From Sulfurimonas sp. (lineage in GTDB: Bacteria; Campylobacterota; Campylobacteria; Campylobacterales; Sulfurimonadaceae): a stretch of 5,388 bases of DNA. Each line of letters starts with the position of its first letter. Within the stretch, counting starts at the first letter, position 1. Positions 1 to 5,115 of this stretch are shown piece after piece. Both the position numbers and the translations under genes were made by a program. Under the pieces are notes generated by a model. That model saw only the letters and a program-made list of their open reading frames with translations, did no database searches and was not told the DNA's origin. The stretch is from the NCBI GenBank assembly GCA_024762745.1, contig JANTGV010000096.1:1-5388 (forward strand), written 5' to 3'.

Positions 1-2774
1 ATAAACTCTTTTGCCACGGAGTTCTCAACTGCTTTTCCTACTGTTTCTAATGGTGCTTCCATGTAAGTTAGAAGTCGTACTGGTTCATGATAGGCTTCCC
101 CTTCTAAAAGCACTGATTGTGTTGGTAAACCTATTTTTAGGTCACTGTAGTTACCGTTAAATACACCAACTTTTGAAACAACATTATGATATACCTTAGA
201 ACCTGCACCATAAACAGCATTATCTACAGTAGCAAAGTAGTGTTCTAGATTAATCCATTCGCCAACAACAAGCGGACCGTTAAAAATTCGTGTGAGGATA
301 TCAGCATTTTCATTATCTAGTTTTTCGTCATAAGAGTGCATAAAGAGTCTGTTTCCAAAAGGCATATGTTTAATTGACTTTCTAGGACCTGCAAAAACAC
401 CCATAACACCTGCTAAACCCCATTCAGGTCTGGTCTCTGACCAGTCCATAGACTTAATCATAATATCATTTTGCGTTTTTGTATATGGAAGTTGCGCTGC
501 TCTTTCATAACGTGAGATACTTGAGGCTTTCTCAAAGTCTTTTTTTACTTGAGCAAATCTTTTCATCTCATCTTCACTTAAAATATCGGTGTCATAAAAA
601 GTTATCTCATCAGTTGTAGTAACATGCAGTGAAGGTATAAATTTTACATCATCAGGAATGACAACTCCCTTCTTAGCAAGTTCATCTCTTACATCTTGTG
701 AATTTGCAATCATACAGAGTGCTCTATTGTTAGGAAGACTACTCTTACCACCACAAGCACCACAATCGAGTGCAGATTCAAATGGATTGTTATCTGACTG
801 ACTTACATGTCCAGATAGAATTACAAACTCAGCAAAGTTATCAACTTGGCCTATCATAGTTAGGAAATTGTACAGATACTGTACTTTCTCTTCAAGAGTA
901 AATCCAACTTTTGCAAGTTTTTGTTTTTGCAGTTCGTAATCTTCAGTAGACACATTGTAGTTATTTTTGAGCTTCTCTAATAGTTCTGATGGCACATCCA
1001 CAGTTAAATTATTACCCAAGATCAGATGATCTCTAATTGTCTGTACCTCTTCTTGAGAATATTTATGAGAAGTGTTGTTTACTAGGGCTTCATTGATAAT
1101 ATGTAGATGAAGTTTATTCACATACATCTCTATATCTTCATCTGATAACTTATCTAGTGTATATGTTGTTTTAGGCTTTTTTGCTTTAAAGTTTGCAAAG
1201 AACTTTTTAGTCTTTTGTGGTGCAAATGTTTTACCAAAAAGATTAATTCCAAAGACCCAGCCTATTGCTTCAACCATAATATATGGTGTATAAGGATTGT
1301 TTTTTAGATCACTTATAACTTTTTTTGTTGTTTTATTAATAACTTTTTTCGACTTATAATCATCGTCTGATTCTTGTGCTACTTCAAATACAATATTTCC
1401 AGGTTTCACAACTGCTGGACATAGAAGCTGTTCGTTTGTTTTGTCAAACTCTACAAAAGCTATTGGAAATCCTAAAAAGCCTCCAGCACCATATGTTGTA
1501 TAGTTACCAGTACTCTCTATCGCTCTTCTTGTAATTTCAGATCTTACATCTAAACACATTGTAATTGAAGCTGAAGGTCTCTGGGTTTCAGGTTCATCGG
1601 AGAGTTTCATTTCGTCAATAAATGAATGAATATAGGTATCTTCAAGAGATTTCATCCAAACATAACCCTCTTCTTCACGAAGAACTTCCATGATTTTTGC
1701 AAGTTCTACCAGTGGTATATCACTGTTAAGTATATCATTTGAGAGGTGAACCTGCTTAGCATCTAACTGAAGCTCCTCTTGTACATATCTCTCTAGGATA
1801 TCCTCATAGTTTTTAGACTCTTCCATAGCATCTATGTATTTTCCAGGGAGATTATGTTTGAACTTAAGCATTTTGAGTATCACATAGGCTCCATTCTCCA
1901 AAGCATACTTATGTAATAAATCAAAATTATTAATTTGTCTATGCTGTAAGTATGCTAATTCGTAATAGAGTCTAATCGCCATATAGTCCATAAGAGATGC
2001 GGGGTACTTTTGTTGTGAATAATAGTCAGAATCTTCAGAGCGGTACTTTATAAATCCAGCCCATCCATGTAACTTAAGAATATGCGTTAAAAGATATCTC
2101 TCTTTGTTCATTACATGTAGTTTCTCTAATGCTTCTTCTACAAATTTTTCAGAGTCATGCGGATAATCAAACTCTTCATAAAGCTTAAATGTCTCAAACA
2201 TTCCAAGTTCTCGATTATCCATAGATAATATAGTCTGGTCTTCATCTAAAAACCGTGTAATATATTCAATAATACTTTTTTCAATTACCTCTTTGTCATC
2301 ACGGTGAAAAAGGATGTCATTAATCTCATAAAGAGTCATATGTTTAGTTATCTGTTTGAGCCATCTGTCTTTATTATGATACGAAAATTCATCATCAAGA
2401 TAAGCTAAAAGTTCTTTATCAATAGCGTGCTCTTTATCGTCTGCCTGTTTTCTAAAGTGGTTCCATTGAGGATTCACTTCAAGTAAACATTTCATAGCTA
2501 GATCATAATATTCTGCTAACCCATCAACCTCAAGAACTTCTTTTAAGTTCTCTTCTAATAACTCATGTGAAATTTTTCCCTCATTATAAAACTTCAAATA
2601 ATAAGATGGATCCATATAGACTTTTCCGCCATATGTTTTTTTTGCTTTGTTCAGGCCATCTTTAAAGCCAAGGTGCTCAAAGCCTTTGAGTGGATTGTGG
2701 TGAATAAATGAACCAATAGGCCAATAGTGCGGGACTCTGTTTTTAACAGCATCTAATTTTTCTACAATACCCAT
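1..2774 (-). CDS. dabA: DabA, beta-carbonic-anhydrase-like subunit of the DAB inorganic carbon pump (DUF2309), C-terminus cut by window edge
   Basis: This is the cytoplasmic, zinc-dependent subunit of the DAB complex. With DabB it is thought to hydrate CO2 to bicarbonate in one direction, driven by a cation gradient. The frame is open from ATG at 2774 to the left edge, giving 924 whole codons with no stop. The start is set by AAGGAG at 2788-2783, 8 nt upstream. The family signature runs along the whole length: HHNPL at 25-29; CLDVRSE with C407, D409 and R411; YGAGGFLGFP near 427-436; CP at 452-453; SGH at 654-656; NNP at 662-664; DCGACGG with C671 and C674; a WINL...GAGSK..HN block at 840-864; and HEPVRLL from H896. 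C407, H656 and C671 are the predicted zinc ligands, and D409/R411 the beta-CA dyad. The H-to-C spacing of 15 equals that of Halothiobacillus DabA (H524, C539). No signal peptide or membrane helix is visible. A few tens of C-terminal residues are probably missing. Family assignment is very secure; direction of catalysis is inferred from the family. Confidence 0.96.
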   Translation of the reverse strand, partial: MGIVEKLDAVKNRVPHYWPIGSFIHHNPLKGFEHLGFKDGLNKAKKTYGGKVYMDPSYYLKFYNEGKISHELLEENLKEVLEVDGLAEYYDLAMKCLLEVNPQWNHFRKQADDKEHAIDKELLAYLDDEFSYHNKDRWLKQITKHMTLYEINDILFHRDDKEVIEKSIIEYITRFLDEDQTILSMDNRELGMFETFKLYEEFDYPHDSEKFVEEALEKLHVMNKERYLLTHILKLHGWAGFIKYRSEDSDYYSQQKYPASLMDYMAIRLYYELAYLQHRQINNFDLLHKYALENGAYVILKMLKFKHNLPGKYIDAMEESKNYEDILERYVQEELQLDAKQVHLSNDILNSDIPLVELAKIMEVLREEEGYVWMKSLEDTYIHSFIDEMKLSDEPETQRPSASITMCLDVRSEITRRAIESTGNYTTYGAGGFLGFPIAFVEFDKTNEQLLCPAVVKPGNIVFEVAQESDDDYKSKKVINKTTKKVISDLKNNPYTPYIMVEAIGWVFGINLFGKTFAPQKTKKFFANFKAKKPKTTYTLDKLSDEDIEMYVNKLHLHIINEALVNNTSHKYSQEEVQTIRDHLILGNNLTVDVPSELLEKLKNNYNVSTEDYELQKQKLAKVGFTLEEKVQYLYNFLTMIGQVDNFAEFVILSGHVSQSDNNPFESALDCGACGGKSSLPNNRALCMIANSQDVRDELAKKGVVIPDDVKFIPSLHVTTTDEITFYDTDILSEDEMKRFAQVKKDFEKASSISRYERAAQLPYTKTQNDIMIKSMDWSETRPEWGLAGVMGVFAGPRKSIKHMPFGNRLFMHSYDEKLDNENADILTRIFNGPLVVGEWINLEHYFATVDNAVYGAGSKVYHNVVSKVGVFNGNYSDLKIGLPTQSVLLEGEAYHEPVRLLTYMEAPLETVGKAVENSVAKEF

Positions 2775-3502
2775 GAAAGTATCTCCTTAACTCCATAAAT
2801 ACTTAATATTGTAAGTGCTATTACAATACCAAAATGAGTAATTTTTTCTTTGTTATCTAAATCAAAATAGTGAATATTTGGATTAGTTTTTCCAAAAATC
2901 GATTTCTCCAGAACCTTCATCGAGATTAAAAAGTTTCCAAGATATATACTAATAACAACTACGTACCATAACAGATCAGCTTCAGTATTAAAAATATATG
3001 TTAAGAAAAACAGAGAGTTTGGTAATGGTGGGTAAAGACCTATACTGATTAAATATACAGTAATATGAATACCAACTAATGGAGTAGCAAGTGTAATACC
3101 TCTTACATAAAGGTAGTTAGCACTTCCATAGTGTTTTTGATAAAAGTTAGCAATTGCATAAAGACCAATTAAAGAGACTAGTAATGATAAACTGTAAAAT
3201 GCACCTTGTTCTTCAAAAAGAAGAAAAAATGGAGCATTAATATAGATAAAGTAGTAGGCTAGTTTATAAAAATTTGTTGTCTTGGTTGCTCTATATATAG
3301 TATACATTGCACTAATAAATGAGATTAAAACTAATGTCTCAGAGTGCTCATTGTGTATAAAAAAAGAGAGGACAATTGCACATAAAAGTAGAAAAGCACT
3401 TATTTGAAAGATAGACTTACTAGTAAACTTAGCACTCTTCTCTAGGAAAATATAGTACGGCAGACCAGAGACCAATAAAAGAAATATAATATTAGCAATC
3501 AT
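2762..3502 (-). CDS. Polytopic membrane protein between dabB and dabA, possibly a half-size NuoM/MrpD-like subunit
   Basis: I do not recognise this as a named family. It encodes 246 residues, very hydrophobic, with about seven or eight likely membrane spans near 2-20, 31-50, 54-71, 78-96, 100-121, 138-158, 176-195 and 222-244. Its ATG at 3502 overlaps the dabB TGA in an ATGA junction and is preceded by AAGGG (3513-3509) at 6 nt. Its TAG lies 13 nt inside dabA. It is therefore almost certainly co-translated with both. From about residue 126 the pattern YGS..YLYVRGI...P, then ISIGLYPPLP, then a Tyr-containing helix ending FGK, then YFDLDNKEK before a last helix, resembles the terminal helices of NuoM/NuoN/MrpD subunits. 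There the equivalents are GL..P, GLPP..GF and a D(L)..E+ segment before the final span. I see no lysine or histidine in the middle of a span that would match the proton-channel residues, apart from H146. A role as an accessory or third DAB subunit is inferred from position. It could instead be an unrelated membrane protein. Confidence 0.9.
   Translation of the reverse strand: MIANIIFLLLVSGLPYYIFLEKSAKFTSKSIFQISAFLLLCAIVLSFFIHNEHSETLVLISFISAMYTIYRATKTTNFYKLAYYFIYINAPFFLLFEEQGAFYSLSLLVSLIGLYAIANFYQKHYGSANYLYVRGITLATPLVGIHITVYLISIGLYPPLPNSLFFLTYIFNTEADLLWYVVVISIYLGNFLISMKVLEKSIFGKTNPNIHYFDLDNKEKITHFGIVIALTILSIYGVKEILSWVL
2783..2788 (-). promoter_or_regulatory. Strong ribosome binding site of dabA, inside the preceding gene
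   Basis: AAGGAG on the minus strand stands 8 nt before the dabA ATG at 2774, within the 3' end of the preceding membrane-protein gene, whose TAG lies 13 nt into dabA. It is the most complete Shine-Dalgarno of the three genes, which would suit high production of the soluble subunit. That last point is inference. Confidence 0.75.
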
Positions 3503-5109
3503 AATTTACCCTTTTTAGAGTTTTTAAACATATCAAAGTAGTATCCTTCCTTAACTAAGAATCTATAATATTGCCATTTAGTTTGATTTGGTTTTTCATC
3601 TAAACTAGCAGAATCTATAGAGGGTTTTCTATATATAAACAACCACCCAATAACCATAATAAGTGTTATAACCGTTAGTGCTGTCATTAAAGTTACATTA
3701 AGTGTTGCAGCTTCATAAAAAAGTAATGCGTCTTTTCCGTAAAGGAAGTGCTCTAATGCTAATCCAAGATATTCATATGTAAATAGTATAAGAATAAAAG
3801 AGCTAATGAGTCCCAATATAACTTTTATTGAGTCAGTTTTAGTTACTTTGAAAAAAGATACAAAAAGTTGAGTTCCTGTAAGCCAAGCGAATGCTAAAAT
3901 AATGATTGCAGCATTAAATTCGAAGAACTCAGGTGCAAGTACTATCTTAGCTCCAATAAACGTGACAACAGGAATAATAGTAAAGAGTGCTATAAGTTTG
4001 AAAGTCTTGGTATTCTTGTATTTTATATCTTTATTTGAAAATGTTTTATTTGAGAGACGTTCTGGAATATGTGAATCTTTTCTCGCATGATTGATAACAC
4101 TTCCTGATTCTAAGAAGAGTGAAGCTTTGAAGATACCATGAACGATAAGGTGATAAACTGCAAGAGAAAATGCACCTAGACCAACTTCCATTATCATATA
4201 ACCCATTTGACCAACTGTCGAGTAACCAAGTGAACGTTTAATATCAGAAACAACTAGCATTAAGACCGATGCAAATATCGCAGTTATAAGACCTATAACA
4301 AACGCAATATTGAGTACTGCTGGAGTAAGAATAAGTAAATAAGCCATTTTATTTAGCAATATACCACCTACATTTACAACACCGGCATGCATTAAAGCTG
4401 ACACTGGCGTTGGTGCTTCAGAAGTGTAAGGTAGCCATATATGAAAGGGTACAATTGCTGATTTCATCATAGCAGCAATTAGGTAGAGTAATCCAACAAC
4501 AAAAATCATCGGATCTGTTATTGGACTTTCAGACATGATGAGCCACTGCTCTTTAAGTACTACTAAATCAAAACTTCCAAATGTTTGGTATGTGAGGATA
4601 ACAGCAAGTAAAAATACGAAATCTGCACTTTTATGAATGTACATAGTCCACCTTGCATTTTTAACAGCTGTTTTAGAACCTACATTAAAGGATACTAAAA
4701 GGTAGAGACCAACACTCATCAGTTGCCACGCTAACGCTAAAACAATCAGATTATTACTCATGACGAGTAGATAAATTGATGCGAAAATAAAGTTTAAAAG
4801 GATAAAGAACCTTTTATAACCAGCTTCATCCCACATATATTTTGTTGCAAACTTTCTAATAACTAAACCTAAGATAGCAATATATGGTACTAAGATAGCC
4901 GAGAGCTCATTATAGATGACTAAACCACCAAGGCCTTCAATCGATTCACCGGTACTCATTACATAATATGTACCAAGTAGTGCAAGTAGTGCTACCATGC
5001 TTGAGAGTATGATACTCACTTTTGGCATTATCTCTTTTTTATTGATAAAACCAAGTATGATTGCTATTATGATCGGTATACTAGGAATAAGTAATACAAT
5101 TTTTTCCAC
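3499..5109 (-). CDS. dabB: DabB, NuoL-like cation-translocating membrane subunit of the DAB inorganic carbon pump
   Basis: This is the integral membrane partner of DabA and is expected to couple a proton or sodium gradient to CO2 hydration. It has 536 residues from GTG at 5109. An upstream in-frame TTG at 5115 is rejected because it directly abuts the AGGAG. The proton-conducting antiporter-like domain (PF00361 type) covers about residues 60-340. Visible motifs are W128-Q129 in the fifth-helix region, K216 followed by S-A then P..H.WLP (H223, W225, P227), APTPVSALMHAGVVN near 232-246, D289-K291-R292 with YSTVGQMGYM, and H320/H324/K328 in the GLGAF...H...HG..KA..FL stretch. HAGVVN and GLGAF are typical of DabB, whereas Complex I NuoL has HAATM. 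The C-terminal third has about four further spans and a tail with YYRFLVKEGYYFD, similar to the tail of NuoL-type proteins. The GIPP..GFFSK loop of NuoL is absent. It ends in TGA overlapping the next ATG. The assignment is secure, supported by dabA in the same operon. Confidence 0.95.
   Translation of the reverse strand: MEKIVLLIPSIPIIIAIILGFINKKEIMPKVSIILSSMVALLALLGTYYVMSTGESIEGLGGLVIYNELSAILVPYIAILGLVIRKFATKYMWDEAGYKRFFILLNFIFASIYLLVMSNNLIVLALAWQLMSVGLYLLVSFNVGSKTAVKNARWTMYIHKSADFVFLLAVILTYQTFGSFDLVVLKEQWLIMSESPITDPMIFVVGLLYLIAAMMKSAIVPFHIWLPYTSEAPTPVSALMHAGVVNVGGILLNKMAYLLILTPAVLNIAFVIGLITAIFASVLMLVVSDIKRSLGYSTVGQMGYMIMEVGLGAFSLAVYHLIVHGIFKASLFLESGSVINHARKDSHIPERLSNKTFSNKDIKYKNTKTFKLIALFTIIPVVTFIGAKIVLAPEFFEFNAAIIILAFAWLTGTQLFVSFFKVTKTDSIKVILGLISSFILILFTYEYLGLALEHFLYGKDALLFYEAATLNVTLMTALTVITLIMVIGWLFIYRKPSIDSASLDEKPNQTKWQYYRFLVKEGYYFDMFKNSKKGKL
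3509..3513 (-). promoter_or_regulatory. Ribosome binding site of the middle membrane-protein gene, inside the dabB end
   Basis: AAGGG on the minus strand lies 6 nt before ATG at 3502, within the last codons of dabB. Together with the 4-nt ATGA overlap this points to translational coupling between dabB and the 246-residue protein. Confidence 0.6.
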
Positions 5110-5115
5110 TAACAA

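Follow-up and report, generated by a model that had tools for sequence, protein, structure and literature searches.

Among the closest described relatives of the system reported here are the two-gene DABs, Halothiobacillus neapolitanus DAB2 and Staphylococcus aureus MpsAB, which combine a DabA protein (PF10070) bearing a finger Glu and zinc-site motifs with a NuoL-like DabB and have no third subunit. Solved structures of DIC-accumulating complexes (DACs; DIC, dissolved inorganic carbon) in the PDB searched are of the two-subunit DAB2 only (9rd0, 9rd8 and 9rd9). In DAB2, a finger of DabA carrying Glu444 completes the periplasmic half-channel of DabB (PMC13144422), and in S. aureus a separate gene, mpsC, lies downstream of mpsAB and is dispensable (PMC6689103). 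H. neapolitanus DAB1, by contrast, is described as a three-subunit DAC with a small hypothetical transmembrane (TM) protein, Hneap_0908 (PMC13144422), whose gene stands between those of DabB1 (Hneap_0909) and DabA1 (Hneap_0907), and its gene order was given in 2015 as a NuoL gene, a putative transmembrane hypothetical protein, a DUF2309 protein of 1046 amino acids (aa), PII and a small hypothetical protein (PMC4633670). Here we analyze a 5,388-nucleotide (nt) contig of Sulfurimonas sp. (JANTGV010000096.1; hereafter the window, meaning this whole stretch), in which a 246-codon gene for a polytopic protein stands between dabB and dabA. The original prediction took characterised DABs to be DabB-DabA pairs, a premise that is wrong for DAB1, since the published DAB1 already has a third TM protein. 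We consider it probable that the third gene encodes a third, structural and non-pumping subunit of a three-subunit DAC, lying beside DabB and held by an insert in DabA, and, as part of this same explanation, that the Campylobacterota lineage of the window is related to the Halothiobacillus DAB1 type.

The minus strand of the contig holds dabB, the third gene and then the first 924 codons of dabA, with the following features:

2762..3502, minus strand: third gene, ATG start, 246 codons; no match to a Pfam or NCBIfam family, product predicted to be a membrane protein resembling half an antiporter
3499..5109, minus strand: dabB, NuoL-like membrane subunit (PF00361, E 2.2e-42)
3..2774, minus strand: dabA, first 924 codons (PF10070, DabA, E 4.1e-202); 3' end cut by the contig end
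3499..3502, minus strand: ATGA stop/start overlap of dabB and the third gene (dabB TGA 3501-3499, third-gene ATG 3502-3500)
2762..2774, minus strand: 13-nt overlap of the third gene and dabA (third-gene TAG 2764-2762 inside dabA, dabA ATG 2774-2772)
2783..2788, minus strand: AAGGAG ribosome-binding-type motif of dabA, within the third gene, 8 nt 5' of the dabA ATG
1554..1556, minus strand: DabA Cys407 codon (in CLDVRSE), at the alignment position of the active-site-type Cys in related DabAs
1269..1271, minus strand: DabA Glu502 codon; this Glu, in the membrane finger, is conserved in 29/29 aligned DabAs
930..1226 (limits approximate), minus strand: insert that follows the DabA finger (residues ~517-615), present in 17 third-gene DabAs and not in 12 two-gene DabAs

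The 246-residue polytopic protein of the original prediction, with its ATGA junction and 13-nt overlap, is thus present as described. The locus belongs with the DACs in that its DabA carries the beta-carbonic anhydrase-type Cys/Asp/His/Cys motifs (Cys407, His656 and Cys671 align with DabA2 and relatives) and is encoded together with a NuoL-like DabB that matches DabB2 (9rd0_B, E 5.9e-39). The start listed for dabB is TTG at 5115; the alternative GTG at 5109 has AGGAG before it and is, from the sequence, the likelier one. No tRNA was found in the window, and patterns resembling promoters or terminators occurred in it no more often than in shuffles.

The window third-protein family is genuine, conserved and seen only at dab loci. 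A search with the protein returned 202 homologues at E<=10, the best 120 of which are 55-100% identical, so the open reading frame is not a chance one; organism names among the matches listed were Campylobacterota, for example Sulfurimonas and Sulfuricurvum. Across 46 sequences 29 columns are invariant, and 18 of these are Pro, Tyr, Gly or Asn. The protein matched no Pfam or NCBIfam family (the best Pfam match among 29 aligned family members, A1, had E 0.031), and a PDB sequence search gave nothing at E<=10. When genome contigs were scanned with two motifs of this family alone, 43 loci were recovered (L001-L043), with dabA directly after the third gene in 43/43 and dabB before it in 41/43, the remaining two being cut. 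Wide occurrence of the gene apart from dab loci, named beforehand as an outcome that would refute a functional link, was therefore not seen among these loci. Conversely, we searched Campylobacterota samples for PF10070 and then looked for the third gene at the dabA loci. DabA was rare (2/298 genomes of the phylum sample; 14/150 and 15/151 genomes for the families of two centres and 2/22 for that of a third), and all 34 assessable dabA loci, excluding the fragments L068 and L082, had a third gene, which belongs to the window family in 31 of them and to another type in 3 (L044, L074 and L084). As 11 of the 34 loci lie in ten genomes entered because they hold the window family, the unbiased part is the other 23, in genomes drawn by kinship alone. 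A Sulfurospirillum-labelled metagenome-assembled genome (MAG; G007) holds both third-gene types, the window type (L043/L054) and the other (L044). A DabA scan of viral contigs gave no match.

Translational coupling to dabA is likewise general among these relatives. The distance from the third-gene stop to the dabA start was -1, -4, -10 or -13 nt in 40/43 loci; the junction could not be placed in L021, L023 and L033, where frames were broken or matches fragmentary. At the upstream junction, close spacing is general only in loci labelled Sulfurimonas or Sulfuricurvum: from the dabB stop to the third-gene start, most of them have -4 or -1 and L041 has -11, while those labelled Sulfurovum have +2 or +7 to +14. 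Because the spacing varies in this way, the ATGA and the 13-nt overlap are themselves not universal, while the claim of a third polytopic protein coupled in translation holds across the placed third gene/dabA overlaps of -1 to -13 nt.

A polytopic protein of ~250 aa occupies the same gene position in L044, L074, L084 and a Nitrobacter hamburgensis plasmid, the last annotated as a proton-conducting subunit, a 253-aa hypothetical protein, DUF2309 and P-II. Halothiobacillus DAB1 has this same gene arrangement. On plasmid 1 of this organism (L070), the dabB-third-dabA-PII unit occurs twice in tandem, with one accession for both third proteins. A search with these four P-II-type third proteins gave 82 proteins at E<=1, from sources including Guyparkeria, Hydrogenovibrio, Halothiobacillaceae, Thioalkalivibrio, Chromatiaceae and Thiomonas; a few carry the source names NuoM, NuoN or MnhD, and P0199 and P0216 (~250 aa) have a PF00361 domain. 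Of the P-II-type thirds, P0145 matched nothing in Pfam and, in NCBIfam, matched NuoM weakly (E 0.0016, far below the cut-off), and P0146 had no match in either. Profile alignment with hhalign joined the window family (A1) to the DAB1-type family (A3) with probability 95.3 and E 2.2e-8, and the window family (A4) to 54 DAB1-type thirds (A5) with probability 96.1 and E 3.1e-9 over 196 columns at 16% identity. Judged by these profiles, the window family is homologous to the DAB1-type third proteins, a set assembled without Hneap_0908 itself, in which dab gene context was seen for 4/54 members (L070, L044, L074 and L084).

In other respects the likeness to DAB1 is partial. The order dabB, TM protein, dabA is shared (PMC4633670; PMC13144422), and DabA1, with 1046 aa (PMC4633670) and active-site Cys462 (PMC7714395), resembles the three P-II-linked DabAs (1036-1044 aa, Cys450-460) and not the two-gene ones (786-855 aa, Cys298-371). 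In contrast, the window third protein shares only 10-18% identity with the 39 aligned DAB1-type members, DabAs of the window type are shorter (955-959 aa in 13 relatives aligned), and a 2-oxoacid:ferredoxin oxidoreductase neighbourhood replaces the carboxysome neighbourhood of DAB1. The place of the P-II/SbtB gene, which accompanies DAB1 and is not a subunit, is seen in relatives only: the window ends inside dabA, and in 37/37 relatives with at least 330 nt downstream dabA is followed by another protein, of ~105 aa and no known family. A plasmid with dabAB1 and 'one unnamed interstitial gene' rescues carbonic anhydrase-free E. coli (PMC7714395), and in 2025 'DabA1/B1' gave no rescue of a delta-can strain, the text available to us not stating whether the interstitial gene was included (PMC12859837); we treat this as a contrast only and not as proof. 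Among DUF2309 operons, the COGNAT analysis of 2017 described one clade with P-II and another that includes a NuoM gene (PMC5700660). Its clade C ybcC (DUF2309) operons, which we compared by description only, resemble the window in having NuoL-type and NuoM-type membrane genes beside a DabA homologue; they differ in that ybcC lies upstream of nuoL with COG1008 (NuoM) as an additional gene (PMC5700660), rather than in the order dabB-third-dabA, and in that the third protein here is a half, under the PF00361 cut-off.

The window third protein is predicted to adopt the fold of the second half of a NuoM/ND4-like antiporter subunit, in a model made from a mixed alignment of 84 chosen rows (45 window family and 39 DAB1 type), and the P-II-type P0145 is predicted to form the same ND4 half. 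We take this half to be about TM7-14 of NuoM/ND4. Neither the window protein nor any of the 29 A1 members matched PF00361 over its curated cut-off, and the link to antiporters is thus made by way of the fold and the DAB1-type family, as the window family alone lacks a significant antiporter match. Residues L10, L40, N89 and L105 of the third protein align with K220, K251, H308 and H334 of a Campylobacterota NuoM (L093), and the broken-helix Glu of the NuoM motif GFVGEF faces a gap, so the conserved protonatable Lys/His/Glu of the second half are not kept. In complex I, these residues form the NuoM proton path. Their NuoL and DabB2 counterparts are discussed in PMC13144422. The third protein therefore departs from NuoM/ND4, as from NuoL/ND5 and Mrp subunits, in its half length, its lack of a PF00361 match over the cut-off and the loss of these positions. 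The proposal that it is part of the ion channel fares accordingly: the predicted antiporter-half fold speaks for it, but the loss of the NuoM Lys/His/Glu positions makes an active channel less likely, and from its residues the protein is likely not a pump. A partial duplication of DabB was also considered as its source and found no support (hhalign probability 0.2-0.5% against DabB).

The DabA proteins provide the second line of evidence. We aligned 29 of them: that of the window, 13 from loci selected among L001-L043, three P-II-type proteins and 12 of two-gene loci, the last taken from 14 plasmid regions (the others being the three-gene Nitrobacter unit and L123, unannotated and uncounted) picked among the best 60 of 123 plasmid records matched. 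The finger Glu, E502 in the window, which its spacing to the zinc-site His suggests is the equivalent of DabA2 Glu444, is present in 29/29, which led us to reject the view that the third protein stands in for the finger. The distance from this Glu to the zinc-site His is 154 residues in the window and in 13/13 others of its type and 167-178 in the P-II-linked type, compared to 64-97 in the 12 two-gene DabAs and 80 in DabA2 (444 to 524). The 17 third-gene DabAs, at 154-178, thus have 74-98 residues more than DabA2, and the window DabA has the long form with an insert after the finger that is found in the DAB1 type. In a tree of conserved DabA blocks with the insert left out, one branch parts two-gene from third-gene DabAs (support 100/99); the window type forms one group (100/100), the P-II type a weaker one (86/66), and the nearest relative of the window dabA is from a Sulfurimonas autotrophica MAG (85% over 452 columns). 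We also considered whether the DabB of third-gene loci regains NuoL Glu144 on its NuoM-facing side, which was not the case: this position (Ile151 in DabB2) is Gln129 in 5/5 window-type DabBs, His or Phe in two of the P-II type, and a hydrophobic residue, Gly, Ala or Thr and never Glu in the 12 two-gene DabBs. The face around DabB codon 129 may be the docking side for the NuoM half.

From the gene with its coupling and linkage, the homology to DAB1-type thirds, the predicted fold, the residue differences and the co-occurrence with the DabA insert, we infer the physical subunit status, docking site and structural role of the third protein. It would probably be made in step with DabB and DabA; as the second half of a NuoM/ND4-like antiporter subunit without the residues thought to move protons, it would pack in the membrane against the NuoL-like DabB as NuoM does against NuoL. 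Together with the DabA insert, it would anchor the CO2-hydrating DabA, which lies above the membrane, at a second point. The driving protons would still be carried by DabB and the finger Glu of DabA. Several points weigh against this reading. Two-gene DABs such as DAB2 and MpsAB work without a third protein, so the core mechanism does not need one. A single origin is possible for the insert and for the third gene alike, in which case their match may be one event and not 17, and the tree program flagged long branches (the Staphylococcus, Mycolicibacterium and Nitrobacter rows). Aligned by itself, the window family (A4) is not significantly similar to antiporters (hhalign probability 13-14%), and neither third-protein family matches DabB (0.2-0.5%). 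Glu21, His211 and His223 are invariant in the 46 third proteins and Lys80 is nearly so, the latter adjoining the Y79 position, where antiporters have a conserved Lys; as these residues are protonatable and conserved, the protein may have some proton role. The literature searched yielded no biochemistry for the Campylobacterota three-gene lineage, including DIC accumulation or rescue of a carbonic anhydrase-deficient strain.

The best surviving alternative, which we hold to be unlikely, is an assembly or insertion factor that aids DabB insertion or DabA joining and is absent from the finished pump. Strict genetic linkage and coupling would suit a dedicated factor too, as would the weight of Pro, Tyr, Gly and Asn among the invariant residues (18/29). 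Antiporter-type subunits pack side by side in complex I and Mrp, and a protein shaped as an antiporter half would do the same with its neighbours, which argues against a transient factor; the co-occurrence of the third gene with the long DabA insert, in turn, suggests lasting contact.

More doubtful still is a CO2 conduit, in which the antiporter half, with few charges along the former proton path, gives CO2 a hydrophobic route to DabA. Leu or Asn at the NuoM Lys/His positions and the lack of a counterpart to the broken-helix Glu are consistent with this, and there is a precedent in cyanobacterial NDH-1MS, where charged lateral-channel residues of NdhF3 are replaced by non-polar ones and a CO2 path has been computed and proposed (PMC6981117). 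On the other hand, DAB2 is described as having gated substrate tunnels to its buried active site without a third subunit, and the NDH-1MS conduit is proposed in NdhF3, a NuoL-type and not a NuoM-type subunit. NDH-1MS is the nearest functional parallel to the proposed arrangement: its CO2-hydrating CupA is bound to NdhF3 on the cytoplasmic side, adjoining NdhD3 where the membrane arm ends (PMC6981117). It differs in being redox driven, in its full-length NdhD3 and in the fold of CupA, which is not carbonic anhydrase-like (PMC6981117). By analogy with this arrangement and its charge loss, the boldest reading, which we rate as similarly improbable, would make three-subunit DACs a minimal redox-free NDH-1MS tip, with DabB in the part of NdhF3, the half-NuoM third subunit in that of NdhD3 and DabA in that of CupA; the third subunit would be a hydrophobic CO2 conduit and gate feeding DabA, and the pump would serve adjacent reductive tricarboxylic acid (TCA) cycle carboxylases in Campylobacterota.

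We regard an extra ion channel, which would add to the driving force by conducting one more proton or Na+ with each CO2, as very unlikely: the predicted antiporter-half fold, the invariant Glu21, His211 and His223, and the tie drawn by COGNAT between membrane-gene number in such operons and ions moved (PMC5700660) point towards it, but the Leu, Leu, Asn and Leu at the NuoM Lys/Lys/His/His positions and the gap at the broken-helix Glu point away. A passenger gene, retained between dabB and dabA for translation coupling only, would agree with the coupling to dabA at every placeable junction (40/43 loci), and is scarcely credible given the strong conservation (29 invariant columns in 46 sequences) and the homologous protein at the same gene position in the Nitrobacter plasmid.

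Already known are the third gene in DAB1, its antiporter-family label and the NuoM genes in other DUF2309 operons; in the literature searched, which largely excluded subscription papers, we found no paper on the third protein of Campylobacterota, on its reading as a half antiporter or on the insert in DabA. The third protein of DAB1, in print since 2015, has been left unnamed or listed as hypothetical. Reading it as half of a NuoM-like subunit that lacks the usual proton carriers, linked to a specific DabA insert and seen at all 34 assessable Campylobacterota dabA loci, turns a 'hypothetical TM protein' into a precise structural hypothesis on how sulfur-oxidising bacteria couple CO2 hydration to the membrane. 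In engineering, leaving the third gene out of 'DabAB1' constructs may make them fail.

The surroundings of dab were counted in 34 relatives with >2.5 kb on at least one side (flanks of at most 8 kb). Genes for 2-oxoacid:ferredoxin oxidoreductase-like subunits lie near dab in 32/34, the exceptions being L026 and L035; in L002, L005, L024, L034 and others, the flanking genes encode POR_N, POR gamma and PorB-like subunits together with a PF02552 protein. This oxidoreductase is linked to the reductive TCA cycle, and such neighbours, seen in relatives as the window is too short, fit a pump role in supplying that cycle. The ~105-aa protein after dabA contains Cys (MYTI..E.ECSCFKKSG; L002:11621-11935), matches no Pfam or NCBIfam family and occupies the place held by P-II in the other type, making it a possible fourth component or regulator; a second, shorter copy is present in some loci and ends in CGC in L002. 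In many loci, a CobW-type GTPase, of a family that includes zinc chaperones (L024:12225-13193), is encoded near the zinc-enzyme gene dabA.

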